From positions 98,729,868-98,793,867 of the forward strand of contig NC_084797.1 in the NCBI RefSeq assembly GCF_963169125.1: DNA of 64,000 nucleotides, read 5' to 3'. The notes beneath the pieces were generated by a model that worked only from the letters and a program-made list of their open reading frames with translations, was not told the origin of the DNA and ran no database searches. This document shows, piece by piece, positions 2,553 to 52,986 of the stretch. Each line of letters starts with the position of its first letter. Position 1 is the stretch's first letter. The translations under genes and the position numbers were made by a program. The stretch comes from Humulus lupulus. Its lineage: Eukaryota > Streptophyta > Magnoliopsida > Rosales > Cannabaceae.

Positions 2553-5132
2553 ACAATTCTTTTTAAAGAGTTGTCTTGTATTAATTTTACTTTTTACAAG
2601 TTTGTGAACAAGGGCCGACCAGTTAGATGGCTGGTCGCTTATAAGTGTAAGATCAATTTTCGATCACTCGTACAGACACGAATCTTGTCCATTTTATTAG
2701 GAGAAACAAAAGTAACTGTGCACAGCCAGTTATTCTTGCCCATTATTGTATTTATTACAAGTATTTGCTCATTATGTGTGTTGTTTTGCTATATTAGCAT
2801 TGATTGTTTACAAGTACGCAAGCAGTAATGTTCGAACTATTGGATTAGCTTATACAGGATCTTTATTTATTTTCATGTATATCTAATATTAAACAAATTA
2901 ATACAAGATAGCCTAAAACATGTTTCTAAAATTGAATTCAAAGAGAAACAAATAATATAATACTTACAGTATACGCAGCGGAATTAAGAGTCATTCCTTC
3001 AGTTTCTCTAACTCTTGTATCCTTTCTGTCGCAGAGTATTATCAAGAAACTGAACTGATCTTCTATTTTCTTCACAATCTTCCAATGTATCCTTAGAACC
3101 ACCTAGACTAGTGTGGCCAATTCTCAACACATGAGATAGATATAGAGAGAATAAGAGAAAATAACAAAGAGGTTTAGAAAAGGACTTGTGTTTAGAGAGA
3201 ATCTAAAACTATCAGAAAATCTGACTTGTGACTTATTAAACTTGTTTTTTGACTTCTCTCTAAGCACTCTTTTTATAGACTCAATTAGGCCATTTAATTT
3301 AATTAAAAAATCAATAAAATAATAGCCATTTTGAAGCCCTAGGTAGAAATTATCATGGGATATAAGCCCATGAAATTTCCCATTTGATTATAAACCCATT
3401 GGACTTAAAATCAAGGCATGTATTATTTTCTATTGATTTAATTAATTAAATAATTATTTAAATCCTTTATCAAATTAATTATTTATAATTTGAACCTTGA
3501 TTTAAATTTATTTATTAATTTAGATACCAATTTATCTTAATTAATAAATCTGCCATGATTTCTCTTTTCTTCTCAAAATTACACAACTCTGTGAAACTAT
3601 CCAAAATTGACCTGGTCAACTTTGATAATTCTAATTGATGATTAAATTAATTAATTGAGACTATCTAGATGATTTTATCCAAGGTACAATGGGGACCATG
3701 GGCCTATGAAATCAAGCTCCAATAAGTTATCATAAATCTAACAAATAAATTTACTAACTTATTAATTCCTCGTGACTCCACTATAGACTTGGAATTGCAC
3801 TCTTGAATTCATAGAACGCTCTATAACAAATATAGATACGCTATTAATTATCCATTGTTACAACCATAATTGTCACTCAATCCTCTATAGATGGTCTACA
3901 GTGAGATAGGACTAAAATACTGTTTTACCCCTCATTGTATTTTATCCTTAAAACACTTAGTTCCTTGTAAATGATATTTCAGTAAACTAATTTAATTACT
4001 GAAATGAGATCTCTATCATTTAACACCTTGAACCAAAATAAAAGGAAACCATCATTTCACTTCTTCATCAGAAGCTATAGATGTTCATATCTATGATTAA
4101 CACTCCCACTCAATTATACTACTGAGTTCCCAAGATGTAAGTATGGGCTAGTCCGTAGGGTAAGCTGGTAACAAACAAGTCAAAGAACTCAAATAATACA
4201 ATCAGTTAGAATACTAACCACTCAGAATTGAGATTGAATTGACCTGTGGTCAACTATATGATATGACTAGAATAGATAATAACGGTATGTTTACTTATCT
4301 TATCAACTGTCAATATCGGTCCTGTCCGATGTAACAAATACATCCGATCTTATCTACTTTGCTAATGTTTTGGAAAGAACATAAAACTGTAATGTGTAAG
4401 TAGATCATATCGTAGATTGGAAAGTCAGTGTAAATTCGGTGCACTGACTAATCTTAGGACTAACTTATTTTGAACATATAATCATATTTATATTCCACTG
4501 TGATTACGTCACTATAAATAAGATTAGCTATATGCTCGGGATTTAATAGAAGTTTATATTAAACAAATAATCATGAAAATAAAACATGTGAGCAAAGTGA
4601 TTGACCAAGTCAAAAAATGATTTCTATTCTTTTATTGATAATCAAATGAGATTACAAAGAATTTGAGTTTTAATTAGGGCATAAAACCACAACACGAACA
4701 TGTATTGGTCATGGAAAATGACCGAGAACCTTAGACTCCTCGATCACTTGGGGGGCATATAAGATACTAAGCGAGCAAAGCATATCAACATAAACATATG
4801 TAAACACACGAGAAAAATAAGGGAAAGCATACTACAACACTTAGAGTATTTTTAAAAAAATTAGTTAATTTTGTGAAATATTAATAAAGTGTTATGCTAA
4901 GTTTGGTCATACGAGCAGATGTTATAATAGCAATGAGAATGTATTATAATATCAAAATGAAACGTCCTTACACCGCGAGCAATTTCTGCTCAAATGTAAT
5001 TAAATATAATAAAAGGAAAGTAAAGCTACCTTAGGCAGCAAATTGTCTCAACACCACGAACAGTTTGTTCAGGTGTTTTATTTACATAAACAAAATTTTT
5101 ACTGTGCAGCTATAGAGGGGCTCCTGCTAAGG
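2553..5132. other. Tat-B spacer between pol and antisense ORF (interrupted)
   Basis: Non-coding spacer of Tat-B, about 720 bp once the copia solo LTR at 2,838-4,694 is removed. An open frame at 2,571-2,828 resembles nothing and is probably chance. The part at 4,695-5,132 holds AT-rich sequence and presumably the 3' UTR of the antisense ORF. Confidence 0.5.
2838..4694 (-). mobile_element. Ty1/copia solo LTR, TSD CGAAC
   Basis: A 1,857-bp LTR in minus orientation: sense start TGTTGTGGTTTTATGCCC at 4,694, sense end CCAATA at 2,838. It is flanked by the perfect 5-bp duplication CGAAC (2,833-2,837 and 4,695-4,699). It is the inverted homologue of the LTR at 52,012-56,379, which gives the boundaries independent support. 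It contains 'ACGCAGCGGAA' near 2,974, the reverse of the TTCCGCTGCGT motif that lies near the 3' end of the copia LTRs in this window. No internal region remains, so this is a solo LTR inside Tat-B. Confidence 0.92.
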
Positions 5133-13652: not shown

Positions 13653-13851
13653 CCAATCACGTCCAACTGTACCTTTACTTCCTTGAAAAGGTAAATACTC
13701 ATGTTTTCACAGTTTCCAAGGAAACATTTGACGGCTTTACGTTTCGCAATGTTCAAAAACATCTTTTCATATGTGACCTTTCAATTACCCTGAGCAATAT
13801 AAATATGCTTATTCCCTTTCCATAATTTTTATCCTAAACTTTCTTTCTTCA
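13653..13851 (+). other. Tat-A antisense-ORF leader, upstream piece
   Basis: Short block of Tat-A between two younger insertions. 'CTTGAAAAGGTAAATACT' and the following sequence correspond to the minus-strand region 8,270-8,410 of Tat-B. It joins 28,619 onwards once Tekay-1 is removed, since the duplication CTTCA is at 13,847-13,851 and again at 28,614-28,618. Confidence 0.75.
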
Positions 13852-16800
13852 TGTAACGACCAAAAAATGCTAATAGGGTTTAGTGCCTTGATTAGCGTGG
13901 TGGGAGGAGATAATTGGATATGTATGAGATTACGTGATTCAAATGCATGACTATGTGGCATGCATGATATATATGATGATGTGAATATGTTTAGATGCAT
14001 GTTTATGAGTATTGGATATGCATGTGGGCCCTTTATTGATTATAATGGCATATCTGTAATTTTGGCTCGTTAAGGGCATAAACGTGATTATATATGTTAA
14101 ATTGTTGAGACCACATTATTATGTGGATATATTTGCAGTATACGGCTCGAGATGATCCTAGTGAGTGGATTAGCAAAATAGTCACAGCAGGGAATAATAC
14201 TCGGCTCGGGGTGAGCTTAGGGGTATTTTGGGAAGTTCAGTGTATATTTGGGATTTATTGAGTAACGAGTAAGTATTTGGTTATTAATGGGGCATGTCGG
14301 GATTAATTGGAAATTGGTAGGATGACTTGAGGAATTAGCAGAAATCGAGAAAATTATCGTTTTACCCCTTAGAAGTAATTAAAGGGCTGGGTTAGAGTCA
14401 AGGGCCATCTGGTCTTTTGGTAAGGGGATAAGCTGATTAACTCAGTGGAAAACTTAGGAAGAGACCAGAATTACCACAAGAAGATTCTCAGCTCTCTCTC
14501 TCTCTCCTCTCACTCACGATCTCTCTCTCTCTTTCCCCCTCTCTTACGCCTTAAATCTAAGGAAACTCAAGGAGTTAAACTGAAAGATTTAAGCTGGGAA
14601 CCAGGGGGAATTAATGCTAGGAACAACTAAGTGATCACTAATGATTGAGGCTTGAAACTTAGGTAAGGATCCTATTTCTATTTTTCTGGGAATTTAGATG
14701 ATTTGGATGAATTTGACTGGGTTTTGAGTAATGAGTTGTAGCTAAATTGAGATGATAGTTTCAGTAGAATTTTTGGGTGTTTTATGCTTAAGATATATGA
14801 TTAAGAGTCCTAGACTCATATCTGAACCTGTTTTTGGCTAGGATGCATGTTAAGGTTCGATTTTTGGGGCTAAAGGTTGGGTAAACAAGCTAGAAACCCA
14901 GGGATTTCTGGGTACGAGGGGGCGCGCCGCGGTCCGCATGCCCAGAAGGACCTCGGAGGGCTTGCTGTTTTGAGGGCGCTCCGCGACCCTAGGGGGAAAA
15001 TCGTAGCCCGCCTCCCCCCAGATTCAGAGGCTGCGTGTAACGCCCTAAACTTCAAGGACCGTTACGGTGCACATATTAAAAAGTGCTAAACTCGCTAACC
15101 GAGTCTTTTGGCCATAATCGTGTAACTAAGTATGATTAGCGGTTTAGGGATTAAAAATTTCGGTTAAGATATAACGTTTCACTAGAATGTTTACTGTATA
15201 CATTGGGATCCCAAAAATATAATTTAAAGGTTTATTACAACAAAATAATTACAACCAGTCAATCTAAGCGACAAAATAGGGTTTAACCCTAGTTCCTCTT
15301 TCAAACCTCAGCCGTGGCGGTCAAGCAGCTGCATATGTACACATCGTCACCTAAGTTCTCAAGCTCAAGGATGGTCCAGCTTTCTTTTGCCTTTACCTGC
15401 ACCACATAGCACCCGTAATCCGAAGCCCAGCAAGAAAACTCAATATGCTCATGAACAGTCATATCATGACATCAAATCATATATGGAATGCTTAGCAAAC
15501 ATAGCTCTATTCAAGCATGCAAATAAATTCAGATAATGCTGGGGAATCTAGGATAAGAAATCCTGCCCTCCTGATTGGATGACTATCAAGTCAATCCTAA
15601 TCAGATGAGTGATTTAACACTAGAGGTTCTGGTAAACCATAATGAGTGATTGACAAGCAAGTCACCACGGGGCACAACACCCACAACCATGCCAATGATG
15701 ATCATTATGATCACACAGAGCTTATAGCCCTGAACAGGTGAGTGAATATCACTTTGAGGTTCTGTTAAACCACAACGAGTGACTGACAAGAAAGACACTA
15801 CAGGGCTCGGCACCCACAGCCGTGTGACAAAACCGTCACCTAGGCTTTCCGGCATTGGCTGTAATCAGATGAGTGACTGCTGGGTAAGTCACTCGGGCTC
15901 AACACCCATAGCCATGTGAATAAACAGTCACTGGGGCTCTCTGGCCCTGGCTCTAAGTGACTAGCCTTTGGCTAGACAAGCGCTTTTAGTTTTCATCGAA
16001 CTTGAGGTCGGTCTGGCATTAATGCTCATTTGAGTCATTCAATGCAGATATCGATTATATCTAATCTTTATTGGCTTGCATTAAACACGCTAAGGCCATC
16101 CTTGACTTATTAGTCAATACCAAGTGACCAGTACTCAGTACTACTGCGAACTTTGACAAGTAGGTCACGGCTTCATAGTTAATACTGACACCATTGCCAA
16201 ATCTGACTAGTTAGTCAGTGCCACGCACAAGTAAGCAATGCTACCAGGCATATATCATATGTCAAATATCCAAAAGTAGGGCATTCAGCATGCTTACTTA
16301 ATAGTTGCTAGCATAATTATGATCATGCACAAACACAGAGACTCAAGCTCTGATCAATCTCATATTCAACATTCATGTCATGCCCTAATCACATTTTTCT
16401 CGTGCATCACATCTAAACATCCAACATGCATCAAGAATAACCATGCATGTCACATATGGGGTGCAGTTTTCTTACCTCGGGTTCGAGCAAGAATTAGTAA
16501 AAGAACGACCCTTGAGAATGATCAATCCTTTGATCCTTTAGCAGTCACCTAGTCATAACAAAATATTTAATCCCATCAATAAAATAAATCATAAAAAAAG
16601 GCTTATAATCTAAAACCTCACTCTCGGGACCAATCCCGTGCTCTCGGGACTCTCAAACCACCCAACCAGGGTAAAGGAACCCATCCCCGAGCCTTAAAAG
16701 TCATCTTAAGCCCTAAAATAGGCTTGCTGGAAAATGGACTAGCGCTGGGGCGCTGTCCCAAGTCAGAGAGACCCAGCTCTCTGCCCTGCCTAGTGCTGGG

Positions 16801-18606
16801 GCGCCATCAGCAGACCATAAATTTTTCTAATCTTCTCCCTTGTGATTTCCCTTGAAAACCAAACCTCCAAACCAATCCCAAACATCATCAAAACATCAAA
16901 TTCAACCCCAAAACTTCATCTATATCACACCCTCATCAAAACACAAGCAACCTTCCTAAAAAACTTCAATTAATTCCCAACTAACCACTTCAAACTCTCT
17001 TGACTGAAAACAATAAGAAAAATAGAGTATGGCCAAAGTTCATGGATAAATTCTTACCTCAAGATGGATTTGAGTCCTCTTCAATGGATGAACTAAGTTT
17101 CTAAGCTCCCACCCTTGATTTCCTAGCTTGATTCTTCAAATTGGGATCAAAAACTCCGAAGGAGGAAGGAGAAAGGATGAGAATCAGTTGAAGGAAAACC
17201 AACAGCTCTGTTTTGGTAAGCTTCTACAGTCCATGAGTTGATATATATCTTATGGGTGAAAAGACCATTTTTCCCCTAGGTCAAATAAAGGCTTCTGAAG
17301 ACTACAAAGGGTAAAATCGTCATTTCCCGCCTATTTCGTTAGTCATAATTAACACCATTCAATTCCCACTATTCTCAATATTCTCAAATGATAATAATTC
17401 ATATCCCGTTACCCTTTAATTCCTGGCAACGTTCTAATCACCAATTTACCCCGAGACTCACCCCGAGCCCCAAAACTAACCCCGTTATGAGTAGACCGAT
17501 AACTTGCATTCCATGATCGTCTCATGTCGAATGGCTCGAACAAATCCACATATCATGTGGTCTTATTTTTAATTCACCCATATACATGAAAATACACAAT
17601 TACGCCTTTAATGGGCCAAGTTACTAAAATTCCCTTATAATTAAAAATGGACCCATATGCATGCATTTATCATCATATAATAATATAATTCACATAAACA
17701 TGCATATAATCATTTAATAACATAATAAATCTATTATGGCCCTCCCGGCCTCCTAATCAAGGTCCTAAACCTTATTAGGAAATTTGGGGCATTACACTGC
17801 GCCTCTAACTTGAGGCACGCCGCGACCCCCAAGGCCAGGTCGCAACCTGCCTAGACAGTTTTGGCCTAGGTTAGTTTTAGGCTTGGGGAGGCTCGGAGAT
17901 TTAAGCCTAAATGCTCAGGATGAATTCTACTACTCGATTTTGTAGAATTCGAGGTCTCAGAGGCTAGAACTTGTTTCCAAAACATTTAGTTGGATTAGAG
18001 TTTGATCGTTATCAATTGTTCATTATGACTAGGATTACCATTAAGGCTCAGGACTAAGGATCATGCTCAGGACCGCTCTTTATCTATCGCTCGGGATTTG
18101 AGGTAAGAAAACTACACCCGTGTGGTTGTGTTTGGGACTGAGATTTCTTGTAATTGAACGTATGTATTATGTAATTGTATGGTTGTTATGTGCAATATGA
18201 AAGTACAGGCTAAGGGTGTCGGGGCTGATGATGCAGGTAAAGGCAAAGGAAAGCTGGACCAACCATGAGTTAAAGAGATATGGGGGCGAAGTGTACATTG
18301 TCAGCTGCTCGACTGCCACGGTCGAGGGAATTTATAGGAATTAGAGCTTTAAGCTGTATTTTGCTGTTAGACTGGCTTTTGTTGTATCAGTCTTTGAGAG
18401 TTGTATTTTCCATGTAAACCCTGTTTTTGGGATCCCATGTATCAAACATTTGTTTTAATGAAAATTAATCATTTATGATCAAAATCTTTTAACCCTAACC
18501 TATCATTTGACTTTAGAATCACATTTATCTTCAAACAACATGATTAGCAAGTCCTGCACTATTTTAAACACACAGTGTAACGGTCTTGGTTATCCAGGGA
18601 GTTACA
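13852..18606 (+). mobile_element. Tekay-1 5' LTR (interrupted)
   Basis: Starts TGTAACGACC and ends GAGTTACA directly before the PBS. It pairs with the 3' LTR from 23,574 through blocks such as the CT-rich run (14,494-14,545 against 24,160-24,215). It is interrupted by a solo LTR at 15,036-17,796. Compared with the 3' LTR it lacks about 270 bp at 18,233-18,234, including the first half of the conserved module (TTGCTGGGC to GGTGCTA). Confidence 0.93.
15036..17796 (-). mobile_element. Tekay-type solo LTR (minus), TSD CTGCG
   Basis: 2,761 bp, minus orientation: sense TGTAATGCCCC at 17,796 to GGGCGTTACA at 15,036, with perfect CTGCG duplications at 15,031-15,035 and 17,797-17,801. It is a close relative of the LTRs at 10,926 and 52,987. 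The conserved module is at about 15,310-15,440 on the minus strand. Several GTGACT/AGTCAC inverted repeats occur between 15,600 and 15,960. Confidence 0.95.
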
Positions 18607-18609
18607 ACT

Positions 18610-18621
18610 TGGTATCAGAGC
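18610..18621 (+). promoter_or_regulatory. Tekay-1 primer binding site (initiator tRNA-Met)
   Basis: TGGTATCAGAGC, 3 bases after the LTR end. This is the well-known complement of the 3' end of plant initiator methionine tRNA, used to prime minus-strand DNA synthesis. Confidence 0.93.
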
Positions 18622-19019
18622 TGTCTAGGTTTAAGGGTTCCTGAAGACTGGCTGGGCATGTACACTCGCTGCTAAAGATAAGCTCGACTTAGGGTTTGGT
18701 AACCAACTATGTCACTATATGCTTAAATTTTTTAATTAAATATAAATGCTTTATCTGCATGATTAATAGGGAGCATGAGATATACTAATAAAACCTGGCC
18801 CTTGACTGCTTTGAGAATATGTTAAGGCGTGCTTATTAGCATTGCTATTGTATGTGAATAATTGTTTAAATGTAAGTTTGTATCGTGATTGTGCATTGTG
18901 GCCTGGATATTGGTGTTGGACCATGGGATAAATATGAACTTGTTATCATTGCTTGACCAGCCGAGTCATTGATTGCAGATAAACTTGGATAGTTATGCAT
19001 CCAAGGTGATCAATACGAC

Positions 19020-20149
19020 TAGCCGACACCGGGGTCGAGTCTAGAGATGATGAGCAGTGCCAGAACCCTCTGCCAATCCCTGAGAACTGGCAGCAGTTGC
19101 TTATTGATATGCAAGCCAAACTTCAGAGTCAGGAAGAGCAGATTCGCCTTCTGAGGAAACAGACTCCATTAGAGAGTGCTGCACCTAACTTGCCACCTGC
19201 TGTGGCACCAGTTGTACAACCACCTGAGATTGGAAACAGGTGGGAGCCACTTTATGAATGATTCAGGAGACAGCATCCTCCAATCATTGAGGGAGGACCA
19301 GATTCACTGAAGGCTGAACAGTGGATAAGTATGATCACCTCCATCCTAGACTTTATGAGGGTGCAAGGTAGTGACAGGGTGGCCTGTGCCACCTACATGA
19401 TTATAGAGGGTGCCCGTATTTGGTGGGAGGTGGCATCACAGACTCGAGATGTTTCCACTATGAGTTGGGATGGGTTCAGAGATCTGTTCAACCAGAAATA
19501 TTATAATGTTGTCGTCAGGGTGGCGAAGGTGAATGAGTTCATTGGGTTGGTTCTTGGCAGCATGATAATTACTGAGGATGTCCTGAAGTTTGATAGGCTG
19601 GCGAAGTTTGCACCAGATTTAGTGCCTGTAGTTGCAGCTAGGCAGGACAGGTTCGTTTGAGGGCTTAATGCTATGATAGCTCGAGATGTGAGGATCACAT
19701 CAGTACCTAGGGAGACAACTTATGCCCAGGTGGTTGAGAAGGCCCTCATTGCTGAGGAGGCAGAGAACAAGATTTGGAGGGAGAACGCTGTGAGACGGGA
19801 TGTTTGTAGTGTAGTGCCTCCATATACAGGGTTTGGTAGGGGTGGAGGCCCCAGTGATCAGAAGAGGAAGACACCTGACACCTCGGCCACTGCTGGTCCT
19901 GATAAGAGGGGCCAGGGTGGCCGCTAGGGAGGCGGTGAGACATGGAGGAGTTATCCAAAGTGCACTAGATGCAGGAAGCGCCATCTAGGCGAATGTCAGA
20001 CCAAGGCTTGCTACTTGTGCGAGGTGGTTGGAAACCACAAGAAAGATTGCCCGACACTGAAAAAGAAGGAACCGGTGAAGGTGGATAGCTTGACTCTAGC
20101 TCGAATGTTCACCTTGACGCAGGCAGAGGTCGAGGCTAGTCCACAGTAG
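19020..20149 (+). pseudogene. Tekay-1 gag
   Basis: Retrotransposon Gag, which forms the virus-like particle. The original start is unclear because a TGA follows the best ATG (18,996). In order it has a glutamine-rich N-terminal segment (QLLIDMQAKLQSQEEQIRLL), the gag core (KAEQWISMI, ACATYMI, ARIWWE, SWDGFRDLFNQKYY), a basic glycine-rich stretch and a zinc knuckle (CYLCEVVGNHKKDC, about 20,011-20,052). In-frame stops lie within the motif ending PLYE (near 19,258), after RQDRFV (19,658) and after GQGGR (19,925). The terminal TAG at 20,147-20,149 is followed by pol in another frame. In the knuckle the histidine sits one position later than in the usual CX2CX4HX4C pattern. Confidence 0.88.
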
Positions 20150-20634
20150 TGATAGGCCAGCTTTCTAGTACTGGCTCTTCATATACTGTATTGATTGACT
20201 CTAGCGCTACACATTCTTTTGTTTCTATAAAGGTGATTGATAGATTGTGTAGGCCTAGCGAGTATTATACTGCGGGGTTTGGGACTATATTGCCTACAGG
20301 GGAGCTGGTAGTTTTTAGGAGATGGATTAGAGCACTGCCAGTGATGGTGGATAGTAGGGAACTATCAGTAGATTTGATTGAGTTGAGTATGGATGATTTT
20401 GATATGATTTTTGGGATGGATTGGCTAGTTAGATACGAGGCCACTATAGATTGCAGGAAGAAGATGGTGACTTTTGAGCCTGAGGGTGAGGACCCATTTG
20501 TCTTTCTGGGTGCTGTGAATGGACCCTGCGTTCCTATGATATCGGCGTTGAGGGCTAGGGACCTACTACAAGGAGAATGTATAGGTTTTCTAGCTAGTGT
20601 GGTGGATACCACTAGAGTTATGTTATGGGGCTAG
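20149..20634 (+). pseudogene. Tekay-1 aspartic protease
   Basis: Open frame of about 160 codons carrying the retroviral-type protease that would process Gag-Pol. The active-site motif reads VLIDSSATHSFVS, where the family has D-S-G-A, so the conserved glycine is replaced by serine. The second conserved segment, DFDMIFGMDWL, is intact, followed by VRYEATIDCRKK as in chromoviruses. It is shifted by one frame relative to the end of gag and ends in a stop at 20,632, just before the RT linker. Probably inactive. Confidence 0.88.
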
Positions 20635-20637
20635 GAG

Positions 20638-22144
20638 AGACTAGATTTTTATGTGAGTTTCTTGATGTGTTTCCTGAGGATTTACTGGGACTGCCCCCGC
20701 ATAGAAAGATTCAATTTGTTATTGAGTTAGCGCCAGGTATGGAGCCAGTATTGAGGGCTCCATGTAGGATGGCTCTGGCAGAGTTAAAGGAATTGAAGAT
20801 ATAGTTGCAGGAGCTTCTAGACTTTGGATTTATCAGACCTAGCTTCTCGCCATGGGGTGCTCCAGTTTTATTTGTGGAGAAGAAGGATGGGACTTTGAGA
20901 ATGTGTATAGACTATAAGGAGTTGAACAAGTTGACCATCAAGAACAAGTACCCCTTATCCAGAATAGAAGACCTATTTGATCAGCTGCAAGGTAAGACAG
21001 TATTCTCGAAGATTGATCTTCGAACTGGTTATCATCAGTTGAGGATCAAGGACGAGGATATTCCGAAGACGGCCTTCCGTACGAGGTATGGGCATTATGA
21101 GTTCTTGGTCATGTCATTTGGTTTGACCAATGCCCCAGCAATGTTTATGGATTTGATGAACAGGGTGTTCAAGGATTTCTTGGATCAGTTTTTGATTGTC
21201 TTCATCGACGACATCTTAGTTTACTCTAGTTCAGAGGTAGAGAATGAGCACCATTTCAGACAAGTATTACACAGATTGAAAGAGCATCGGTTATATGCTA
21301 AGTTTAAGAATTGTGGGTTCTGGCTGCCAGAAGTGACATTCCTTAGACACATAGTTAATGGAGATGGCATTAAGGTAGATCCAACCAAGGTAGAGACCGT
21401 TAAGGATTGTCCGAGGCCAAGGAATGCCTCGAAGGTTAGGAGCTTCCTTGGACTAGCAGGATATTATAGGCGGTTCGTAGAATGGTTTTCAAAGATTGTC
21501 GCACCATTGACTGAATTGACACATAAGAATCCGAAGTTCATCTGGTCCAACAAGTGTGAGGGTAGCTTCCAAGAAATGAAGTGACGACTGATTACTGCTC
21601 CTGTGTTGAGTCTCCCTTCGGAGGGAGGGAAATTTGTGGTGTACTGTGACACATCGAGACTGGGATTGGGTGCGTTTTGATGCAGAATGAGCATGTTATT
21701 TCCTATGCATTGCAACAGTTGAAGGATTATGAATAGCAGTATCCTACCCATGATTTAGAACTGGCAGCAGTGGTATTCTCACTGAAAGTTTGGCGAAATT
21801 ACTTGTATGGGGAGAAGTGCGAGATATACACCGATCATAAGAGTTTGAAGTATTTCTTCACCCAGAAGGACTTGAACATGAGACAAAGACGTTGGCTGGA
21901 GTTGGTGAAAGACTACGATTGTGATATCCTTTACCACCCAGGAAAAGCCAATGTAGTGGCAGATGCGTTGAGCCAAAGGGGCCCGGGACAGTTGTTTAGT
22001 TCTAAGCAGATATCGAAAGAGTTAGCAGAAGAGATGGATAGAGCAAGGATAGAGCTGGTTGTGGGTTGGTTGGCCAATATTATTTTACATTCTACCCTCC
22101 TAAAGAGGATAAGAGAGGGTCAGTTGGATGGTGCGCAGTTGTAG
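20638..22144 (+). pseudogene. Tekay-1 reverse transcriptase and RNase H
   Basis: RNA-dependent DNA polymerase plus RNase H. The linker (FLDVFPEDLLGLPP) starts at about 20,660. An in-frame TAG at 20,802-20,804 separates it from the RT core. Key RT motifs are present: [24 protein letters not shown] (first catalytic Asp), FGLTNAPA and FIDDILVYS (catalytic Asp pair; F-I-D-D for the usual Y-I-D-D). The thumb ends [16 protein letters not shown] follows EMK at 21,582. RNase H has DTSRLGLG, then a frameshift near 21,668, then [10 protein letters not shown] and [20 protein letters not shown], ending in [10 protein letters not shown]. Only a few lesions interrupt an otherwise well preserved sequence, so this is a fairly young copy. 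Confidence 0.93.
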
Positions 22145-22149
22145 GAGGT

Positions 22150-23330
22150 TATAGGGAATGTCCTAGCTGGAGTGACTGAGGATTATTCAATTTCAGAGAC
22201 AGGTTTACTATGGTATGGGAATTAGACGAGAGATACTAAGGATCAGTGTTTTGATGAATATGGGAATTAGACAAGAGATACTTAATGAATCCCATACTAC
22301 ACTATACTCACTCCATCTAGGCACCATGAAGATGAACCAGGATCTACGAACATTATATTGGTGGCATGGGATGAAGAAGGACATGGTTGAATACGTAGCC
22401 AAGTGTCTAACCTGTCAGTAGGTAAAGATTGAACATCAGCGACCAGCGGGGTTGCTACAGCCTTTGGGTATTCCCGAGTGGAAGTGGGAAGATATTACTA
22501 TGGATTTTGTGGGAGTTTTACCCAGGATAGTGGGGCTACACGACTCGGTGTGTGTGATAGTAGAAAGATATACCAAGTCAGCTCACTTTCTGCCAGTGAG
22601 GACGACCTATACTGTGGATCATACATATAGTTGTATGTGAGGGATATTGTACGTCTCAATGGGGTTCCTAAATCTGTAGTATCGGACCAGGTCCCCTATT
22701 TACCTCCAAGTTTTGGGGTAGGTTGCAGAGGCTATGGGAACTCAGCTGAAGTTCAGTACATCCTTTCATCCTTAGACAGACGGACAGTCTGAAAAGACAA
22801 TTCAGATACTGGAGCACATGCTTAGAGCATGTGTGTTAGACTTCAAGGGGTCTTGGAGTAAGTACCTCCCGTTGATTGAGTTTTCGTACAACAATAGTTA
22901 TCAATCAACGATTGGAGTAGCTCCATACGAGATGTTGTATGGAAGGAGATGTAGGTCACCCATTCATTGGGATGAGGTGGGGGGGGGAGGAGATATTTGG
23001 GACCGAATATGGTTTAGAAGACTAATGAAGCTATTGAGAAGATCTGAGCTCGAATGCTCACTTCGCAGAGTAGACAGAAAAGCTATGCTGATCCTAAGCA
23101 TAGGGACGTGGAGTTTTAGGTTGGGGACCACGTATTTCTACAAGTTTCACCAATACGAGGTGTGAGGTGATTTGGGAAAAATGGCAAACTGAGCCCTAGG
23201 TTTGTAAGACCTTTTGAGATCCTGGAGAGGATCGGCCAGGTAGCCTATAGATTGGCTTTGCCACCGTCATTATCAGGAGTTCATGACGTACTCCACATCT
23301 CCCTGCTTCAGAAGTATGTCTCAGATAGAC
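22150..23330 (+). pseudogene. Tekay-1 integrase
   Basis: Integrase that inserts element DNA and makes the 5-bp target duplication. The zinc-binding part has SHTTLYSLHLG, YWWHGMKKDM and CLTCQ (H-H-C-C), followed by a TAG at 22,420. The core has WEDITMDFVGVLP (first catalytic Asp), VSDQ (second Asp, near 22,682) and TDGQSEKTIQILE (catalytic Glu, near 22,790). Frameshifts lie near 22,630 and 22,695-22,790, and a stretch of G near 22,980 breaks the segment after PIHWDEVG. The C-terminal part shows PRFVRPFEILERIG, VAYRLALPPSL and HDVLHISLLQKYV. A short duplicated segment (GGGAATTAGAC-AGAGATACT) is present at 22,217-22,281. Confidence 0.88.
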
Positions 23331-23562
23331 TCATGTTTTGGGATATGAAGGCCTAGAACTACAGACCGATTTATCGTACAAGGAGCGACCAGTTCAAATC
23401 TTAGACACAAAAGATAAGGTTCTAAGGAACAAGATGATTCCTTTAGTCAAAGTATTATGGAGGAATAGCAAGGTCGAAGAAGCGATCTGGGAGCTAGAGT
23501 ATGCTTGCGGGATCAGTACCTCGACTTATTCAGGTAAATTTCGAGGACGAAATTCACAGTAG
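23331..23562 (+). pseudogene. Tekay-1 chromodomain-like C-terminal tail
   Basis: C-terminal extension of the integrase. The frame reads YKERPVQILD, NKMIPLVKVLWRN and EEAIWELE, the usual position of the chromodomain or its degenerate form in Tekay elements, thought to direct insertion to heterochromatin. It ends in KFRGRNSQ and a stop at 23,560-23,562. It is one frame away from the preceding integrase segment. Confidence 0.8.
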
Positions 23563-23573
23563 GATGAGATAGT
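23532..23573 (+). promoter_or_regulatory. Tekay-1 end-of-pol palindrome and PPT
   Basis: AATTTCGAGGACGAAATT, a near-palindrome at the 3' end of pol, is followed by the purine-rich AGGATGAGATAG directly before the 3' LTR. Tekay-2 has the same pair (AATTTCGAGAACGAAATTT at 63,511, AAGGAGGGGATAG before 63,549). Confidence 0.7.
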
Positions 23574-24907
23574 TGTAACGACCCAAAAATGCTAATAGCG
23601 TGCCGGGAGGGCATAATATGATATGTATGTGATTCAAATGTGTGACTATGTGGCATGCATGATATATATGATGATGTGAATATGTTTATATGCATGTGGG
23701 CCCTTTATTGAATATAAGGGCATATCTGTAATTTTGGCCTATTAAGGGCATAAACGTGATTATATGTGTTAAATGGTTAAGACCACATTATTATGTGGAT
23801 ATATTTGCAGTATACAGATCGAGATGATCCTAGTGAGCGAATTAGCGAAATAGTCACAGCAGGGAATAATACCCAGCTCGGGGTGAGCTTAGGGGTATTT
23901 TGGGAAGTTCAGTGTATATTTGGGATTTAATGAGTAACGAGTAAGTATTTGGTGATTAATGGGGAATGTCGGGATTAATTGGAAATTGGTAGGATGACTT
24001 AAGGAATTAGCAGGAATCAGGAAAATTACCGTTTTACCCCTTAGAAGTAATTAGAGGGTTGGGTTAGAGTCAAGGGCAAATTGGTCTTTTGGTTACGGGA
24101 TAAAATGATTAACTCAGTGGAAAACCTAGGAAGAGACCAGAATTACCACAGGAAGACTCTCAGCTCTCTCTCTCTCTCTCTATCCCTCTCACTCACGATT
24201 TCTCTCTCTCTTTCCCCCTCTCTTATGCCTTAAAGTTAAGGAAACTCAAGGAGTTAAACTGAATGATTTGAGCTGGGAACCAGGGGGAATGAAAGATAGG
24301 AACAACCAAAAGATCACTGAAGATTGAGGCTTCAAACTTAGGTAAGGATCCTATTTCTATTTTTCTGAGAATTCAGATGATTAGGATGAATTTGACTGGG
24401 TTTTGAGTGATGATTTGTAGCTAAATTGAGATGATAGTTTCAGTAGAATTTTTGGGTGTTTTATGCTTAAGATATATGATTAAGAGTCCTAGGCTCGTAT
24501 CTGAACATGGTTTTGGCTAGGATGCATGTTAAGGATGGATTTTTGGGGTTGAAGGTTGGGTAAACATGATGGAAACCCAGGGATTCCTGGGTACGAAGGG
24601 GTGCGTTGCGACCCAGTTCATGGGCGCCATGACCCGCGTGCCCAGAACGCCTTGGGAGGGCTTGCTGTTTTGAGGGCGCGCTGCAACCCTAGGGGGCAAG
24701 TCACAACCCGCCTACCCCCAAGATGCAGAGGCTGCACCTCTAACTTAAGGCGCACCATGACCCCCAAGGCCAGGTCGCGGCCTGCCTAGATAGTTTTGGC
24801 CTAGGTTAGTTTTTAGGCTCAGGGAGGGTCAGGGATTTAACCCTAAGCGCTCGGGACAAATTCTACTACCCGATGTACTAGAATTTGAGGTCCCAGAGGC
24901 TAGTACT

Positions 24908-25279
24908 TGTGACGCCCCACGTCACTATGGCTACTTTCTGGAATGATGACTGGCCCTACAAACCAACACGAGTCTTTTCAGCGTGCTTTGTCCTCACTCA
25001 CATGCTTCTTAGGAAAACTTCCCAGGAGGTCACCCATCCCTAAATTACCCCAGGTCAAGCACGCTTAACTTTGGAGTTCTCAAGTGATGGGCTACCAAAA
25101 AGAAGATGCATCTTGTTGATATAGGTAGTACCCATCAATCCATTTAAGCCCTCTTTAATTGTATAGTCCCATACCTACACAGTCTTAGAATCATCACACT
25201 TGACCTTCCCCAGGCAGTGTGGGATTGCACAGCTTACCTGGTCTTTCCCCTTACGGATCACGGGATTCTGACTGTCACA
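24908..25279 (-). mobile_element. Cassandra-type TRIM LTR
   Basis: 372 bp, sense TGTGACAGTC to GGGGCGTCACA. It holds CAATCCCACACTGCCTGGGG, then GGTACTACCTATATC, CAAGATGCATCTTCT, and the 5S-like module. Cassandra elements are non-autonomous TRIMs defined by 5S rRNA sequence inside their LTRs and by an initiator-Met PBS. The size and order fit. The family assignment comes from memory of these features, not from a search. Confidence 0.85.
25012..25098 (-). pseudogene. 5S rRNA-like module with internal Pol III promoter boxes
   Basis: Minus strand: GTAGCCCATCACTTGAGAAC, CTCCAAAGTTAAGCGTGCTT, GGGATGGGTGACCTCCTGGG. This matches the middle and 3' half of plant 5S rRNA, including box A (AAGTTAAGCGTGC) and box C (GGGTGACCTCCTGGG). 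The 5' third and the last bases of 5S rRNA are absent or changed, so it is not a 5S gene but the module typical of Cassandra LTRs. It might still be bound by Pol III factors. Confidence 0.88.
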
Positions 25280-25334
25280 ATCACCCCCCTTACGGGCCCG
25301 ACGTCCCCGTCGACCACACTTTCGGCTGGGTCAA

Positions 25335-25348
25335 GGCTCTGATACCAT
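25335..25348 (-). promoter_or_regulatory. PBS of chimeric insertion
   Basis: Sense ATGGTATCAGAGCC, complementary to initiator tRNA-Met, directly after the Tekay-type LTR end (GGCGTTACA|AA). Tekay elements have ACT between LTR and PBS instead, so the spacer is Cassandra-like. This is the point where the two families meet. Confidence 0.85.
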
Positions 25349-25349
25349 T

Positions 25350-27703
25350 TGTAACGCCCTACTACCTTAGAGCCGTTACTAAGTGAGTTTATAATGTGCA
25401 ATTAACTCGCTAAGCGAGGTTTTTAGAACAAAAGTGTGATTAAACAAAAAGTCAAGGCTGTAATCTTTAAAAGTACTCCATTCCATTAAAAGTTCCAAGA
25501 GTTTAGCATTTGGGATCCCAAAATAAGGTTTGTAAAATATTTACAATTCAAAATAGGTTTACAAATGACTAATTATCAAAAACATAGTTTAATACAGCCA
25601 TTTCTCAAAATGCCACAACCAAAGCAGTCGACAGGCCAAACATGTATGCGTTACCCCCACACTCTCCGTACTCATGGCTGGTTGAATTTCTCCTTTCCCT
25701 TACCTGCAACATAGAGCACCCGTGAGCCGAAGCCCAGCAAGAAAACTCATACAGCACATAACATATGCATAACGTAACCATTATGTCAGATAATCCACAG
25801 ATAAACAGATAGTCTATAAGATTTAAACACATATATGGCCATGCCGTCCCAAAAGTGTTACCAAAGCCTGGGTTCTTGGTCCACACCGTAAGGATATCCC
25901 ATGTACCCATTGGGGTCTCACCCTAACCATAAGCACTCCATGTGCTAAGTGATATTCCCGACCCCACTGCCGTTCTCGGCTCCTTTGCCGTTCATGCTAC
26001 TATATCCACACTTATAGCATATTTAAACAACATTCAAGCATATAATAATTCAATCAAAGCTACACCCTATCAATAATGTAATCTAGGGCCGTGCCCTGCA
26101 ACAACACTATGGGCCCACGCCCTGCTGTACGGGTTCTACAATTTTCTTACCTTTATCCCGAGCTTCACAATGCACCAAAGCCTCGAGCACGGTCCTCTAT
26201 CCCGAGCCTCTTCGAAGACCTAGTCACAACACATATAAAACATCCTTTAATACTAACCAATCCAAAACCACTTCCCGGGACCAATCCCATACTCTCGGAA
26301 TCCCCAAATTCCTAAAACAATGCATCAGAAACATCCCCCGAGCCCCCGGAGCAAAAGCCCAAAAAATGCAAAATTCCTTGTTCTGAAAATAGCCTAGCGC
26401 CGCGGCGCTGCCCTTGAGGGCCACGGCGCCCAGCAAGTCAGAGAGTACCCCTAGCCCTGAAGCAGCCTCGAACCGCGGCGCCCCTTCACGAACCCAGAAT
26501 TTTGGGTTTTCCCTTGCATTTTCCCCGAGCCAAAACACACCCAATTCAACCTAAACACATACCTAAACCCCAAAACCAATTTAAAACCATAAATAAACCA
26601 TCTAACAACCTATAAACACCATCCACAAGTATAAACACATAATCACCTCCACAAATCACACTTTGATTCCAAATCTCAGTAGTTCAAACCAGCGAGTTAG
26701 AAACTTAGACCAAAGCCTACAAAAACCTAAACCATGCTTCAAATTCCTTAAACCACAACAGAAATAAACCTCATAATTGCACAGAATCCTTACCTCAAGT
26801 GGAGAATTCAACCTTAAGCTCCCTTGATTCCAGCTTCAAGCCACTTCCCCCTTGATTATCCAAACTGAATTTTCCAAGCCAAACCAACCATATTTCCTTT
26901 AAATTCCCACACTTATTCTCTGAAAATCAAACTTAAATTTAAACAAGAACAGAGCATAGCTCTTACCTCTGAGTAGTCCTAGCTTAAATTTGACCTTGGT
27001 TGTCTCTAATCCCTCTTGAATTTCCTCCTACGTCTCAAGTTTCAGCCCTCTTTCTTGCTTCCCTTTCTTTCTAGCCTTTTCTTCAATTTCAGCATAAACC
27101 AAAATAATAAAGTGTTGAACGTGAACCATCTTTCCTTCAGCTGAAACTTATCTACCCTTAGCCAAATGACCCTTCTACCCTTCCGTAAAAATTCTTTCCT
27201 AACTAACCCTCAAGGGCACTTTTGTCATTTCATCTCTATTACTATTCTACCATTTTCCCACCACAACCTGTTACTCTCAGCAGTTACTAATGGTTACTAA
27301 GTTTACTCAATCACCAATAACCATTAACCACTAATTCTCAACTCAACTTACGAAATTCCCAAAGTACCCCTAGGCTCCTCCTGAGCCGGGTATAAAATCC
27401 CGTTGTGACTTTTAAGTTAACTAGCTCCCTAGGACCGTCTCAGCACGTGCATCACATTAATATCACCACACTCACATGGTACAAATCACATAATACAATT
27501 ATCACATTTATGCCCTCAGCAGGCTAAAATTACCAATTTACCCCTAACATACAAACGGGGCCCACATGCAAATTTATACAACCTAAACATGCATTCTAAT
27601 CACATATTCATTCAAATTCATATATTATCATGTTAATTCACTTATTTCCCTCCAGGCACGCTAATCAAGGTCCTAAACCTTATTAGCAACTTGGGGTGTT
27701 ACA
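25350..27703 (-). mobile_element. Tekay-type LTR forming the 5' end of the chimera
   Basis: 2,354 bp, sense TGTAACACCCC to AGGGCGTTACA. Its last 40 bases (AACTCACTTAGTAACGGCTC, then TAGTAGGGCGTTACA) match the LTR at 44,355-46,680 almost exactly. It has the GC-rich block (26,395-26,485) and the conserved module (25,620-25,750, minus strand). Confidence 0.9.
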
Positions 27704-28618
27704 GTACTTGTTTCCAAAATATTTAATTTGATTAGAGTTTGATATTTATCCATTGTTGATTGTGAGTAGGATTACCGTTAAGGCTTAGGACTAAGGATCG
27801 TGCTCGGGACCGCTCTTTATCTATCACTCTGGATTAGAGGTAAGAAAACTGCACCCGTGTGGTTGTGCTTGGGACTAAGATTCCCTGTAATTGAACGTAT
27901 GTATTCTGTAATTGTATGGTTGTTATATGCAATATGAATGTTTGACCTAAGGGCGTCAGGGCTGATGATGAGCATACTGTACGCAGCTCAGCCTAAGCGA
28001 GTCGGGGTCAGCTACATAACCAGAGGGCTCAGCCTAAGGGCGCAAATGCCTAATTGCTTGTTTTACTGATCAAGATATATGTTTGAAAGTATATGTTTTT
28101 TTTTTGTCTAGCTTTATATTTGTATTTTGTTGATTAATTGAACTGATTGGATTGAAGTTGATTATATGCTCTTGTTGCAATTTATGCTTATTGATTATGG
28201 TTTTCTTGCTGGGCCTTGGCTCACTGGTGCTACATGGTGAAGGTAAAGGCAAAGGAAAGATGGAAAAACCATGAGTTAGAGAGCTTTGGGGGCAGAGTGT
28301 ACATTGTCAGCTGCTCGACCTCCACGGCCGAGGGAATTTTACAGGAATTAGAGCTCTAAACTGTATTTTGCCGTTAGACTGGCTTTTTTCGTATTAGTCT
28401 TTGAGAGTTGTATTTGTCATGTAAACCCTATTTTTGGGATCCCATTTATCAAACATTTGTTTTGACGAAAATTAACCGCTTATGATCAAAATATTTTAAC
28501 CCTAACCTGTCAATTGGCTTTAGAATCACATTTATGTTCAAACGACTTGATTAGCAAGTCTTGCACTATTTTAAACACACTGTGTAACGGTCTTGGTTAT
28601 CCAGGGCGTTACACTTCA

Positions 28619-44354: not shown

Positions 44355-46680
44355 TGTAGTGACCCAAATTTTCTAATAAGGCTTGGAGCCTTGATTAGTG
44401 TGCCTGGAGGGCAATAATTGTTATACTGTATTAATTTATGTGAATTTAATGAATATGTGATTAGAGTGCATGTTTAGGCAATTAAATATGCATGTGGGCC
44501 TCGTTTGATTGTTAGGGGAAAATTGGCAATTTTAGCCCGTTTAGGGCATAAATGTAATATATGTGATATAATGGTAATATATTTGTGATGCACGTTCCGA
44601 GACGGTCCTAGAGAGCCAATCCGCTTAAAGTCACAATGGGATTTAATACCCGGCTCGTGAGGAGCCTCGGGGTATTTCGGGAACATTATAAATTTAGTTG
44701 GGGACTTTAATTAATGGTTAATATTATTTTAGTAGCTTGAGTAACCATAGGTAACCATTGAGGATAGATACGCTAAGTGAGAAAATGGTATATTTTCAAG
44801 CGGATAGGAAAGATCTAAGATGCCCTTGAGGATTAGTTAGAATATGGGTTAAATGAAAGGGTAAATGGGTCTTTTGGCTGGGATTTAGATAGCTATGGAT
44901 GAGTGGGAAAGTTATTCACGTTTTCTATACTTGGGAAAATTCAGCTATTGTTGAAAGTGAAGGAAAAGCTAAGAGCAAGAAGGAAAGGAAGGAAGGGCAA
45001 ACCTCTTGGGATCAAGAAGGGAGTTAAGGCTAGAGAACTTAGAGGATTGTTCAGCATATTGAGGTAAGGGAATTCTGTGTAATTATGTTGAAGAATTCAG
45101 CTAGGAATATCATGGTTTGAGAATTGAATTGTGTGTTTTGTTAGGTGAATTCTTGGGATGAATTGTGGTTAGGTTCAGCTTGAATTTTGTGGAATTAAGC
45201 TTGGAATTTTATTGGGAAAGCAGCTCAAGGTCGAATCTCCACTTGAGGTAAGGGTTTCATGCATCTCCGTTTGGTCGATTGCTGGTGTGGTTTAAGAATT
45301 ATGAGGGATGGTTTAAGTTTTACAAGTTCTGGTTTAAGTTTTGAAAGGCTTGGTTTAAGTTTCTGAAGTTTTAAACCAAATTGGGAATTGTAGGTTTGAT
45401 TGTGTGATTGAGCTTATTGTTGATGTTTTTGAGATGTTAGATGGTCTATGTGGGGTTTTGAATCGAATTTGGGACTTAGGTAAGTCTTGGTAATGATTTG
45501 GGAGTGTTTTGGCTTGGGGAAAACATTTGGGGAAACCCATATTTCTGGGTTTGCGAAGGGGCGCTGCGGCCCTGCTCTTCTGCGCGGCGGCGCTAGGCTG
45601 CATCAGTGGACGGGGGCCCTTCTGGGCGCCGCGGCGCTAGGCCATTTCTGGGCAGGGGAAAATTGTGGTTTTTAGGCTTTTGCCCAGGGGGCTCAGGGGA
45701 CGCTTCTGCCACTTTGTGTGGGGTTCCGGGAGGTCCCGAGGGCTCGGGTTTGGTTCCGAGAGATGCTTTTGAATTGGTTAGTAATGGGGATGCTATTTGT
45801 GTGTTGTGAGTAGGTTCTCGGAGAGGCTCGGATTAGAGGACCGTGCTCAAGGGTTCAGTGCTCAAGAAGCTCGGGACACAGGTAAGAAAACTGTTGTACC
45901 CATAGAGCAAGGCGATGCCCCATAGTTGTGTTGCAGGGCACGGCCCTATATGATTATGTGTTGGGTGTAGCCTCTTTGAATATGTTAGTATATGTTTAAG
46001 TTATGTTTAAATTATGCTGTGTATGCATATATGTGAATGATTGGCTAGGGCCGGGGACGGCGAAGGCCGGGAACGGCAAAGGGCCGGGTAGACCGCAACT
46101 CAGGACGAGGAGTGCGAGTTGCCAGGGTAAGACCCTAAAGGATACCTGGGATATCCTTACGGTGTAGACCGCAACTCAGGACCTGGTGAAGCGCCTGAGA
46201 CGGCATGGCCGTATGTGTTTAGCTTGTTAACAGATTGGTTATATGCTAAATGGTTCATATGTGTATGTTATCTGTTTATGTGGAGTTTTCTTGCTGGGCT
46301 TCGGCTCACGGGTGCTCTGTGGTGCATGTAAGAGCAAGGAGAAAGTCAACCGACCATGAGTATGGAGAGCGTGACGTGGCGTGTACATGTCTGGTCTGCC
46401 TGGCTGCCACGGCCAGGGGTACTTTTGGAAGTTGTTTGTAAAGAATCCTATTTTTTCGTTTAGTCGACTTTAAATATATTTTGAGTTGTAAATATTTATA
46501 AATAGTATTTTCGGATCCCAAATGTTAATTTTCTTATGAATTTCAATAAATGGAATTATTTTCAAAGTTTATGTCTCTGTTTATGATTTAATTACACGTT
46601 TACCTTAAAACCTCGATTAGCGAGCTAAACGCACGTTTTAAACTCACTTAGTAACGGCTCTAAGGAAGTAGGGCGTTACA
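44355..46680 (+). mobile_element. Tekay-type solo LTR, TSD GATTC
   Basis: 2,326 bp, TGTAGTGACCC to AGGGCGTTACA, with perfect GATTC duplications (44,350-44,354 and 46,681-46,685). Same subfamily as the LTR of the chimera (25,350-27,703) and the fragment at 1,099-2,363. It includes a GC-rich block (45,555-45,650) and the conserved module (46,283-46,415). Confidence 0.95.
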
Positions 46681-49033: not shown

Positions 49034-51276
49034 TGTTAAGAACGAGTTTCCTAATACGCAGCGGAAAGGTGGTGTGGTTGGCCCAGTGTACAACAAAAAT
49101 TTTGTAACATATTTAAACTACCTTTAAATATGCGGATCCATTAATATACATACATTAATCATAAGCAAGATAGTGATAGAAATCATACCTCTTGAAGCCT
49201 ATCAAGTGTCCTTGCTATCTTCTCGTATTTAGAACGATCTTCCTATCCAAGCCGCTCCACGTACTCACACCAAGATCTTCCAAAGCGTTCTCTACACCTC
49301 AAGAAATGTGTGGGCACTTAGAGAATGAAGGATAGTTTATTTGTGATTCTACTTGATGTACTCAACACATGAGATCAAGAGAATAGGCCTGAGAATGGGT
49401 TCTTTATTTTCAGGGAGAGAAAACTATCGTTCTATTTTCACAGAGCGAAATTGTCAGAGTAGTCTCACACTCACTTCTGTTATCTAAATAATTTTTCTGA
49501 TCAGTCATACTTAACAGAAAATATTCAAAATTTAAAAAATAAATCTGTAACCATTTTACAATTTACTTTTTAATTAATTAATTATTCCATTAATGAAACA
49601 AATCCAAAAACCAATTTTTGAATTATCCATTAATTAATTAATTAAACAAATAAAATTGAAAATCCCATCCCTGAAAATGCCAGCCCTTACACGCCACACA
49701 CAGTCCTGGACTGTGGGTGAACGTGTAGCTTCCTAATTTCTAGGGATATTGATTTTTCAAATTTTATTTAATTATTTATTCAAATTTCTTTGTCAGATAA
49801 GTTCTAACAACCTGATAACTAATTCAAATTTGAATTCAAATTAATTATCTATTTAATTAATTATCAAATATAATTAATTATTTGAATAAATATTAATCTT
49901 TTAAATTCAAATCCAATTTGAACTTATCAGATTATCATCTCCCACTCAAATAAAGATATTTAATTAATTCTACTAATTAATTAAACCCAAATTTTCGAAA
50001 TTAAATATTTAATTTATTATAATTTCAAAAATTATAATTAATTAATTATTTAATAAAATTTCGAAAATTAATTTAATTATTTAATATAATTTCGAAAATT
50101 AAATATTAATTAATTTTGTTAACTACAACTAATTTGTAATTAATTAATTAATCACTATTATCATATAATTGCATATTCGGCCTGAAGAACAAATTTCTTC
50201 CTAAATATGTCTTTAAACTATTTTCCCTTCATATCAACTCTTACCTTGAACAGTGTTGATAGAGCTGCTATGGGGACCTATGGACCTATAATTCCAAGCT
50301 CCAATAAATTTGAGATTATTAATTAAACTCTTTAATTAAATAATCTTAATTTATTAATCTCATGATTATTCCACTATAAATATGAGATTGCACTCTTGTA
50401 ATTATAGACATTTCATTTACTGAGTACTTTATAATCATAAAGTGTCCATTGATTTAATCATTGCATACAACTTGACCCTCTAATAATGGTTCATAATTAA
50501 TCGGGAATAAAATTACCGTTTTACCCTTTTAATTATCTCTTGTTTCCTTAAGTACCATTGACTCTACTAGTGAAGGTTAATTCATAACTAAATTATGAAT
50601 TTGAGCTCAATAACCTTTCAGTCCCAAAAGTCAACCCTTAAGAGAACCATCATTCAATCTCTTGCGAGAAGGCATAGATTCCATATCTGTATACTATGTC
50701 CCCAGCCATCTATATTAATGAGTTCCCAAAACAAAAGTTTCTAGCCTGATCATTTTGACAGACCCTAACAAGTGAATCAAAGAACTCATATAACATTAAC
50801 AAGAGTTCGTAGTAACTTCAGGATTAAGATCTATTTGTATATGATCATCAGTTGATATATTTGATTAATACTTCGAAACAGTATTTAACTAAGTATTAAT
50901 AAACATATCTGGTCCAGTTCTATATATTCTCTAATATATAAAGCACCTCGACTAAAGTGTCCTACCACACTAGTGATCCAGATCTAGATCACATGTATTC
51001 ATAATATTAGTGGATCGTACTTGCAGTAATTAATCTAAAGATTCCATAACTTTATTTTACTGCGAACTATTCAAGTTCATTTTTCTCAAACACAATCCTC
51101 TCGTACCAATACGTGTTTGAGATCACATATATGAACTTAGGAATTTTCCTGATATTTACATAATATTATCATAGAATAATATAGTCCATAAAATATATGC
51201 ATAACAAATTCAATTTATTTATTTATTTCATAAAAACAATGTCTACTACATATGCTTTCAGGGCACATCTCCAACA
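49034..51276 (-). mobile_element. Copia solo LTR, TSD GCAAC
   Basis: 2,243 bp, minus orientation: sense TGTTGGAGATGTGCCC at 51,276, sense end TCTTAACA at 49,034, with perfect GCAAC duplications (49,029-49,033 and 51,277-51,281). It is nearly identical to 58,255-60,496. ACGCAGCGGAA near its left end is the reverse of the TTCCGCTGCGT motif that lies near the 3' end of the copia LTRs in this window. Confidence 0.95.
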
Positions 51277-52011: not shown

Positions 52012-52986
52012 TGTTGGGGTTTTATACCCTAATTATAACCCAATTTCTTTGTAATCTCATTTATTATCAATAAAAGAATAGAAATCATTTTTTCACTTGG
52101 TTAATCACTTTGCTCACATGTTTTATTTTCATGATTATTTGTTTAATATAAACTTCTATTAAATCTCGAGCATATAGCTAATCGTATTTATAGTGACGTA
52201 ATCATAATGGAGTATAAATATGATTCTATGCTCAAATATAAGTTAGTCCTAAGATTAGTCAGTGCACATGATTTACACTGACTTGCCAATCTACGATATG
52301 ATCTACTTACACATTGCAGTGTTATGTTCTTTCCAGAACATTAGCAAAGTAGATAAGATCAAATGTATTTTTTACATCGGAATAAACCGATATTGATAGT
52401 TGATGGGATAAGTAAACATACCATTGTTATCTATTCTAGTCATATCATATAGTTGACCATAGGTCAATTCAATCTCAATTCTGAGTGGTTAGTACTCTAA
52501 CTGATTGTATTATTTGAGCTCTTTGACTAGTTCGTTACCAGCTTACCCTATAGACTAGCCCATACTTACATCTTGGGAACTCAGTAGTATAATTGAGTGG
52601 GAGTGTTAATCATAGATATGAACATCTATAGCTTCTGATGAAGAAGTGAAACGATGGATTCCTTTAAGTTTGGTTCAATGTACTAAATGATAGAGATCTC
52701 ATTTCAATAATTAATATTAGTTTACTGAAATATCATTTACAATTAACTAAGTGTTTTAAGGATAAAATACAATGAGGGATAAAATAGTATTTTAGTCTCA
52801 TCTCATTGTGGACCGTCTATACAAGATTGAGTAACAATTATGGTTGTAACAATGCATAATTAATAGCGTATTTATATTTGTTATAGAGCGTTCTATGAAT
52901 TCAACAGTGCAATTCCGAGTCTTTAGTGGGGTCACGAGGAATTAATAAGTTAGTAAATTCATTTGTTAGATTTATGATAACTTATT

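Follow-up and report, generated by a model that had tools for sequence, protein, structure and literature searches.

In a normal LTR element both LTRs are alike, and an insertion that begins with the LTR of one family and ends with that of another raises the question of how its two halves came to be integrated. Such an insertion lies in a 64,000-nucleotide stretch of the genome of Humulus lupulus, here called the window. It occupies positions 24908..27703 (2,796 bp), its sense runs on the minus strand (27703 to 24908), and its limits were set by target site duplications (TSDs), termini and a collinear empty site. Direct reading showed perfect GTACT repeats on both sides, the left copy at 24903..24907 and the right copy at 27704..27708. 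In sense order, a 2,354-bp LTR is followed by AA, a primer binding site (PBS), 41 nt, a polypurine tract (PPT) and a 372-bp LTR, all on the minus strand. The 5' LTR (25350..27703, TGTAAC...GTTACA) is a complete LTR of gypsy/chromovirus-like type, separated by the AA spacer (25348-25349) from the tRNA-Met PBS TGGTATCAGAGCC (25335..25347), where the parts of the two families join. The short internal region (25280..25334), which appears Cassandra-like from the reading of its PBS and PPT, ends in the PPT GTAAGGGGGGTGAT (25293-25280), which adjoins the Cassandra-type 3' LTR (24908..25279, TGTGAC...GTCACA). Both ends of the chimera are family-specific right up to the TSD, with TGTAAC on one side and GTCACA on the other. 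No open reading frame of at least 250 aa was found within the insertion, and the only one in the window lies outside it. Direct reading and alignments reproduced the boundaries, the 5-bp duplication, the PBS, the PPT and the LTR lengths given in a preliminary description of the locus.

The identity of the 3' part was evaluated against the box A and box C motifs and the PBS TGGTATCAGAGC published for Cassandra (PMC7215508). The PBS of the chimera contains this published sequence, and the 3' LTR carries a 5S promoter module at 25028..25070 on the minus strand, in which box A (25070-25059) and box C (25040-25028) lie exactly 18 nt apart, as published. This is the sole such pair in the window, where chance, calculated from base composition for gaps of 15-25, would give about 5e-6 pairs. 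The Rfam model RF00001 aligned to the 3' LTR at 25001-25111 over model positions 1-120 with 19.9 bits (E 0.15), below the gathering score of 38, and a covariance-model search of the whole window at the gathering score gave no match. The 5S sequence previously noticed in the 372-bp LTR is thus borne out by the spacing of its boxes and is weak by the covariance model; the call of a Cassandra-type LTR comes from the published boxes, and the RF00001 score alone would not have carried it. The short internal region with a tRNA-Met PBS, the PPT adjoining the 3' LTR and the LTR length of 372 bp, within the reported range of about 200-400 bp (PMC7215508, PMC10853983), are also those of the Cassandra lineage. 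In contrast, the 81 Cassandra elements described in PMC10853983 have LTRs with at least 74% identity and a total length of 563-968 bp, whereas the chimera has a Cassandra LTR at its 3' end only, an unrelated 2,354-bp LTR at its 5' end and a length of 2,796 bp. BLASTN (E 1e-3) detected no other copy of the Cassandra-like part in the window. A search for further copies in viral contigs, genome contigs and phages, non-plant sets whose silence has little weight, gave no match, and a 16-nt string from the PPT region was absent from the papers searched.

The 5' LTR was compared with a solo LTR of the window (44355..46680, plus strand), whose GATTC duplications on both sides fix the LTR boundaries. 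A whole-length alignment matched the two throughout and at both ends, indicating that the 5' LTR is whole and that U3 is present upstream of the PBS. The BLASTN pieces showed 71.5% identity over LTR positions 884-2354 and 72.9% over positions 7-544, with no piece for positions 545-883 against this solo LTR. The two LTRs had been assigned to one subfamily; at these identities, and with positions 545-883 unmatched, they belong to the same lineage and hardly to the same subfamily. The 5' LTR is also collinear at positions 1-68, 72-352 and 1953-2050 with the LTRs of the gypsy element that hosts the insertion, and its best score against a host LTR (90.6 bits) far exceeded the best of 50 mononucleotide shuffles (32.8 bits), which establishes homology to the LTR of a gypsy element. 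No internal region belonging to the family of the 5' LTR lies in the window, and the chromovirus label comes from the LTRs; by homology to the neighbouring host element, the 5' LTR appears to be chromovirus-like. Tekay, the name used in the preliminary description, denotes a clade placed by RT/RH/INT phylogeny (PMC6317226) and is a putative label for this LTR. According to the same source, most chromoviruses among plant gypsy elements are primed by tRNA-Met and non-chromoviruses are not.

The host element (13852..28613, plus strand) is itself one insertion, as shown by its own CTTCA duplications (13847-13851 and 28614-28618), and the chimera lies inside its 3' LTR. Nine of 18 translated pieces were searched for domains, and five of these gave gag, protease (RVP_2), RT, RNase H and integrase zinc domain. 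Its RT is nearest to those of several plants among the best 120 of 7,992 scored candidates. An RT pattern search in viral contigs matched 10 stretches, none of them a relative. The C-terminal piece of the host gave no Pfam domain and no chromodomain, even at E 5; its relatives carry either PF24626 or the chromodomain PF00385, the latter in about 32 of the 120 listed by a count made by eye, and the nearest among the named matches listed (120 of 164) is from Cannabis sativa, with 79-80% identity over 73-74% of the piece. The host also carries TGGTATCAGAGC after its 5' LTR.

The host 5' LTR is the sister of the target and was read for the unoccupied site. When the insert and one TSD copy were removed and the flanks joined, the resulting sequence aligned with 86.5% identity to 17797..18233 (plus strand), a part of the host 5' LTR, and the alignment was unbroken at the join. 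The join reads GGCTAGAACTTGTTTCC in the sister 5' LTR and GGCTAGTACTTGTTTCC at the insertion locus, and the sister target is GAACT, one base different from GTACT. This empty site, a new addition to the preliminary description, is collinear across the joined flanks, so that the chimera entered by one integration and not by two. As evidence for a single integration it is stronger than the equal 5-mers; two random 5-mers of the window agree with a chance of 0.0014. The insertion sits in an older gypsy element that retains the empty site in its own 5' LTR. The two host LTRs differ by a K2P distance of about 0.104, measured on three aligned stretches with 1,920 sites in total, a rough figure since the stretches are uneven (0.090, 0.179 and 0.109). 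Substitution rates of 1.3e-8 and 7e-9 are used for dating, and with these the insertion would have an approximate upper age bound of 4.0 or 7.4 million years.

Further rearrangements were found in the host LTRs and around them. A second LTR-type insertion (15036-17796, TGTAAT...GTTACA on the minus strand, TSD CTGCG) lies inside the host 5' LTR, so both host LTRs were hit. About 263 bp of the host 3' LTR (27971-28233) is absent from the 5' LTR; this is likely a deletion in the 5' LTR, as other LTRs of the window match part of 27971-28233. Much of the window resembles nested gypsy-type LTR material. It also contains a direct 2.2-kb pair with 94% identity (49034-51276 and 58255-60496), which may belong to a younger element or reflect a duplication, and an inverted pair of about 1 kb with 93% identity (3721-4694 and 52012-52986).

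How the two families were joined before integration can be approached from the pathway of reverse transcription. Genomic RNA carries R-U5 upstream of the PBS, without U3. Plus-strand strong-stop DNA consists of U3-R-U5 with the primer site and normally pairs with the complementary PBS in which the minus strand ends. The preliminary description proposed that RNA or cDNA recombined at the PBS and that the mixed linear DNA was integrated. A copy-choice switch between RNAs at the PBS is ruled out, since genomic RNA has no U3 at that place and the chimera has a whole one; the part of the proposal that concerns cDNA and a single integration stands. A complete U3 upstream of the PBS points to a plus-strand transfer at the level of cDNA. 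We infer that a linear cDNA was built from two elements through this transfer, likely in one particle, and was integrated once, and we regard this as the best explanation and a probable one.

In this sequence of events, Cassandra RNA would be primed by tRNA-Met, would finish its first strand transfer, as its whole 3' LTR implies, and would then be copied back to the primer site. Concurrent copying of a chromovirus-like element would yield plus-strand strong-stop DNA, consisting of U3-R-U5 and the primer site copied from the tRNA. This strong-stop DNA would anneal to the primer-site complement on the Cassandra minus strand through 12-13 common nucleotides, and extension of both strands would give chromovirus LTR, PBS, Cassandra inside and Cassandra LTR. 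An integrase, most likely that of the chromovirus, would then insert the product into the 3' LTR of the older gypsy element, duplicating 5 bp of the target. Pairing of the strong-stop DNA with a foreign minus strand at a common primer site would give the observed structure without an added assumption. The 12 nt TGGTATCAGAGC are common to the published Cassandra PBS and the host element, while the parents' own primer sites are not in the window; the PBS of the chimera may derive from either parent, and the breakpoint may lie inside it or beside it. The copy itself is probably a dead end, since no R region should be common to its two ends.

The same product could be obtained outside a particle, if two cDNAs from separate particles were joined by microhomology-mediated end joining (MMEJ) at the common primer site, for example in the nucleus (the nuclear site is our own suggestion), and were then integrated. 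Factors of alternative end joining are reportedly required for the second-strand transfer of LTR elements via PBS microhomology (PMC12786077), and the fly element HMS Beagle reportedly depends on MMEJ factors for its second-strand synthesis (PMC12426944). Moreover, no match longer than 10 nt was reported between the two LTRs of the chimera, which makes the PBS the natural joining place for end joining. However, strong-stop or broken cDNA would have to be free outside particles for this route, whereas the obligatory strand-transfer step predicts a breakpoint at the PBS without extra assumptions. We consider end joining unlikely, though less so than the other rivals; it would involve no co-packaging and would say little about the helper.

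The remaining alternatives place the change after integration or in the assembly, and the flanks bear on each of them. Gene conversion or another recombination after integration, in which one side of an ordinary Cassandra or gypsy insertion was later overwritten, would preserve the TSD and could use the 12-13 bp of homology supplied by the PBS. On the outer side, however, few terminal bases are available, and TGTAAC and GTCACA are native to the last base at both TSDs; conversion from outside should blur one end, and we judge kilobase tracts to be implausible where one flank offers about 13 bp and the opposite one a few bp, leaving this explanation very improbable. Two independent insertions followed by a deletion between their primer sites had been named in the preliminary description, in the form of separate insertions with flanks equal by chance. 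Neighbours in the same orientation can recombine, and a 13-bp repeat may suffice for a deletion, but with the sister LTR contiguous both elements must have used an identical 5-bp cut, for which the 5-mer chance given above applies and is lowered further by the collinear flanks; the empty site reduces this reading to a very slight chance. An assembly artefact is given equally little credence. Repeats are often misassembled, but a wrong join at the PBS would bring together the flanks of two loci, whereas the flanks of the chimera are two parts of a single interrupted LTR and carry equal TSDs. We also considered a solo gypsy LTR inserted at a Cassandra PBS and rejected it, as the LTR has no TSD of its own there (AGTAC on the left and AATGG on the right, sense strand).

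The termini of the LTRs were also compared. In its final 12 nt, TGGGGCGTCACA, the Cassandra LTR agrees at 10 of 12 positions with the U5 ends of three others, namely the chimera's 5' LTR, the solo LTR and the LTR nested at 15036, and at 8 and 9 of 12 with those of the two host LTRs; the U5 ends of Cassandra and the chromovirus-like element (TGGGGCGTCACA and TAGGGCGTTACA) are thus nearly alike. The outer ends of the chimera are alike as well, as had been noticed before, with 10 of 12 positions shared when the start of the 5' LTR is reverse-complemented and set against the U5 end of Cassandra. At its U3 start the Cassandra LTR shows a lower likeness (7/12 to the 5' LTR, 4/12 to the solo LTR and 5/12 to the nested LTR). 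The window has 8,165 12-mers that end in CA, of which 12 match TGGGGCGTCACA at 10 or more positions, the site of TGGGGCGTCACA itself included. The remaining 11 all lie at LTR termini, six fixed by structure (17796, 27703, 46680, 25350, 23574 and 15036, two of which bound the 5' LTR of the chimera itself), four placed by homology (13652, 55500, 43023 and 10926) and one by eye (58161). Positions 10926, 13652, 43023, 55500 and 58161 represent more LTR termini like TGTAAYGYCCCA or its complement. With the LTR ends of this window as the comparison set, the U5 likeness is a hint in favour of a chromovirus-like helper, and the lower likeness at the U3 start speaks against it.

Fusions of this general kind have precedents. 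For rice, Jiang et al. 2002 are said to have described Dasheng and RIRE2, a non-autonomous and a putative autonomous element, fused and read as co-packaged. The chimera resembles that pair in fusing such partners; Dasheng and RIRE2, however, reportedly have common sequence in regions needed for transposition, whereas the LTRs of the chimera showed no reported match beyond 10 nt and the passenger here is a TRIM of Pol III type. Chimeras between co-packaged relatives are known from several further systems (PMC1950507, PMC5668417, PMC2923131). The template-switch complexes described from Triticeae, rice and maize (PMC1950507) likewise combine an unusual structure with one TSD and were read as one integration of a recombinant cDNA, but they have three LTRs, one of them internal, two cores and alike outer LTRs within one family, whereas the chimera has two unlike LTRs of two families and no third LTR between them. 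In the recombinants of mini-Tnt1 (PMC2923131) and ONSEN (PMC5668417), co-packaged plant transcripts also recombine during reverse transcription, but within one family and, as described, at the first transfer or by minus-strand switches, whereas the chimera unites two families and agrees with the second transfer. The literature matches listed, covered by titles and abstract starts, contain no report of a Cassandra-chromovirus chimera, and no priority is claimed.

The locus bears on the question of which element mobilises Cassandra. The preliminary description held its autonomous partner to be unsettled, in agreement with PMC7215508 and PMC10886601, both of which call the helper unknown. What the window contains is a real single-integration chimera of two families with a clear candidate mechanism, in one known copy. 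Joined at the PBS between families, it is physical evidence that cDNAs of both elements met. If both cDNAs were in one particle, Cassandra RNA was co-packaged with chromovirus-like RNA. The earlier proposal that Tekay machinery mobilises Cassandra is suggested by this structure. In its broader form, a chromovirus lineage of this plant would be the helper of Cassandra, whose RNA would be reverse transcribed in chromovirus particles, and the chimera would be a fossil of that relationship; we find the case for this form evenly balanced. It draws on a common primer and a nearly identical U5 end in LTRs otherwise without detectable likeness, and the chromovirus-like element may itself be a passenger and not the helper. 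The helper question now becomes a genome-wide count of the families that form mixed-LTR insertions with Cassandra, and if the chromovirus lineage is indeed the helper, mixed-LTR chimeras would offer a general route to the helpers of orphan TRIMs.
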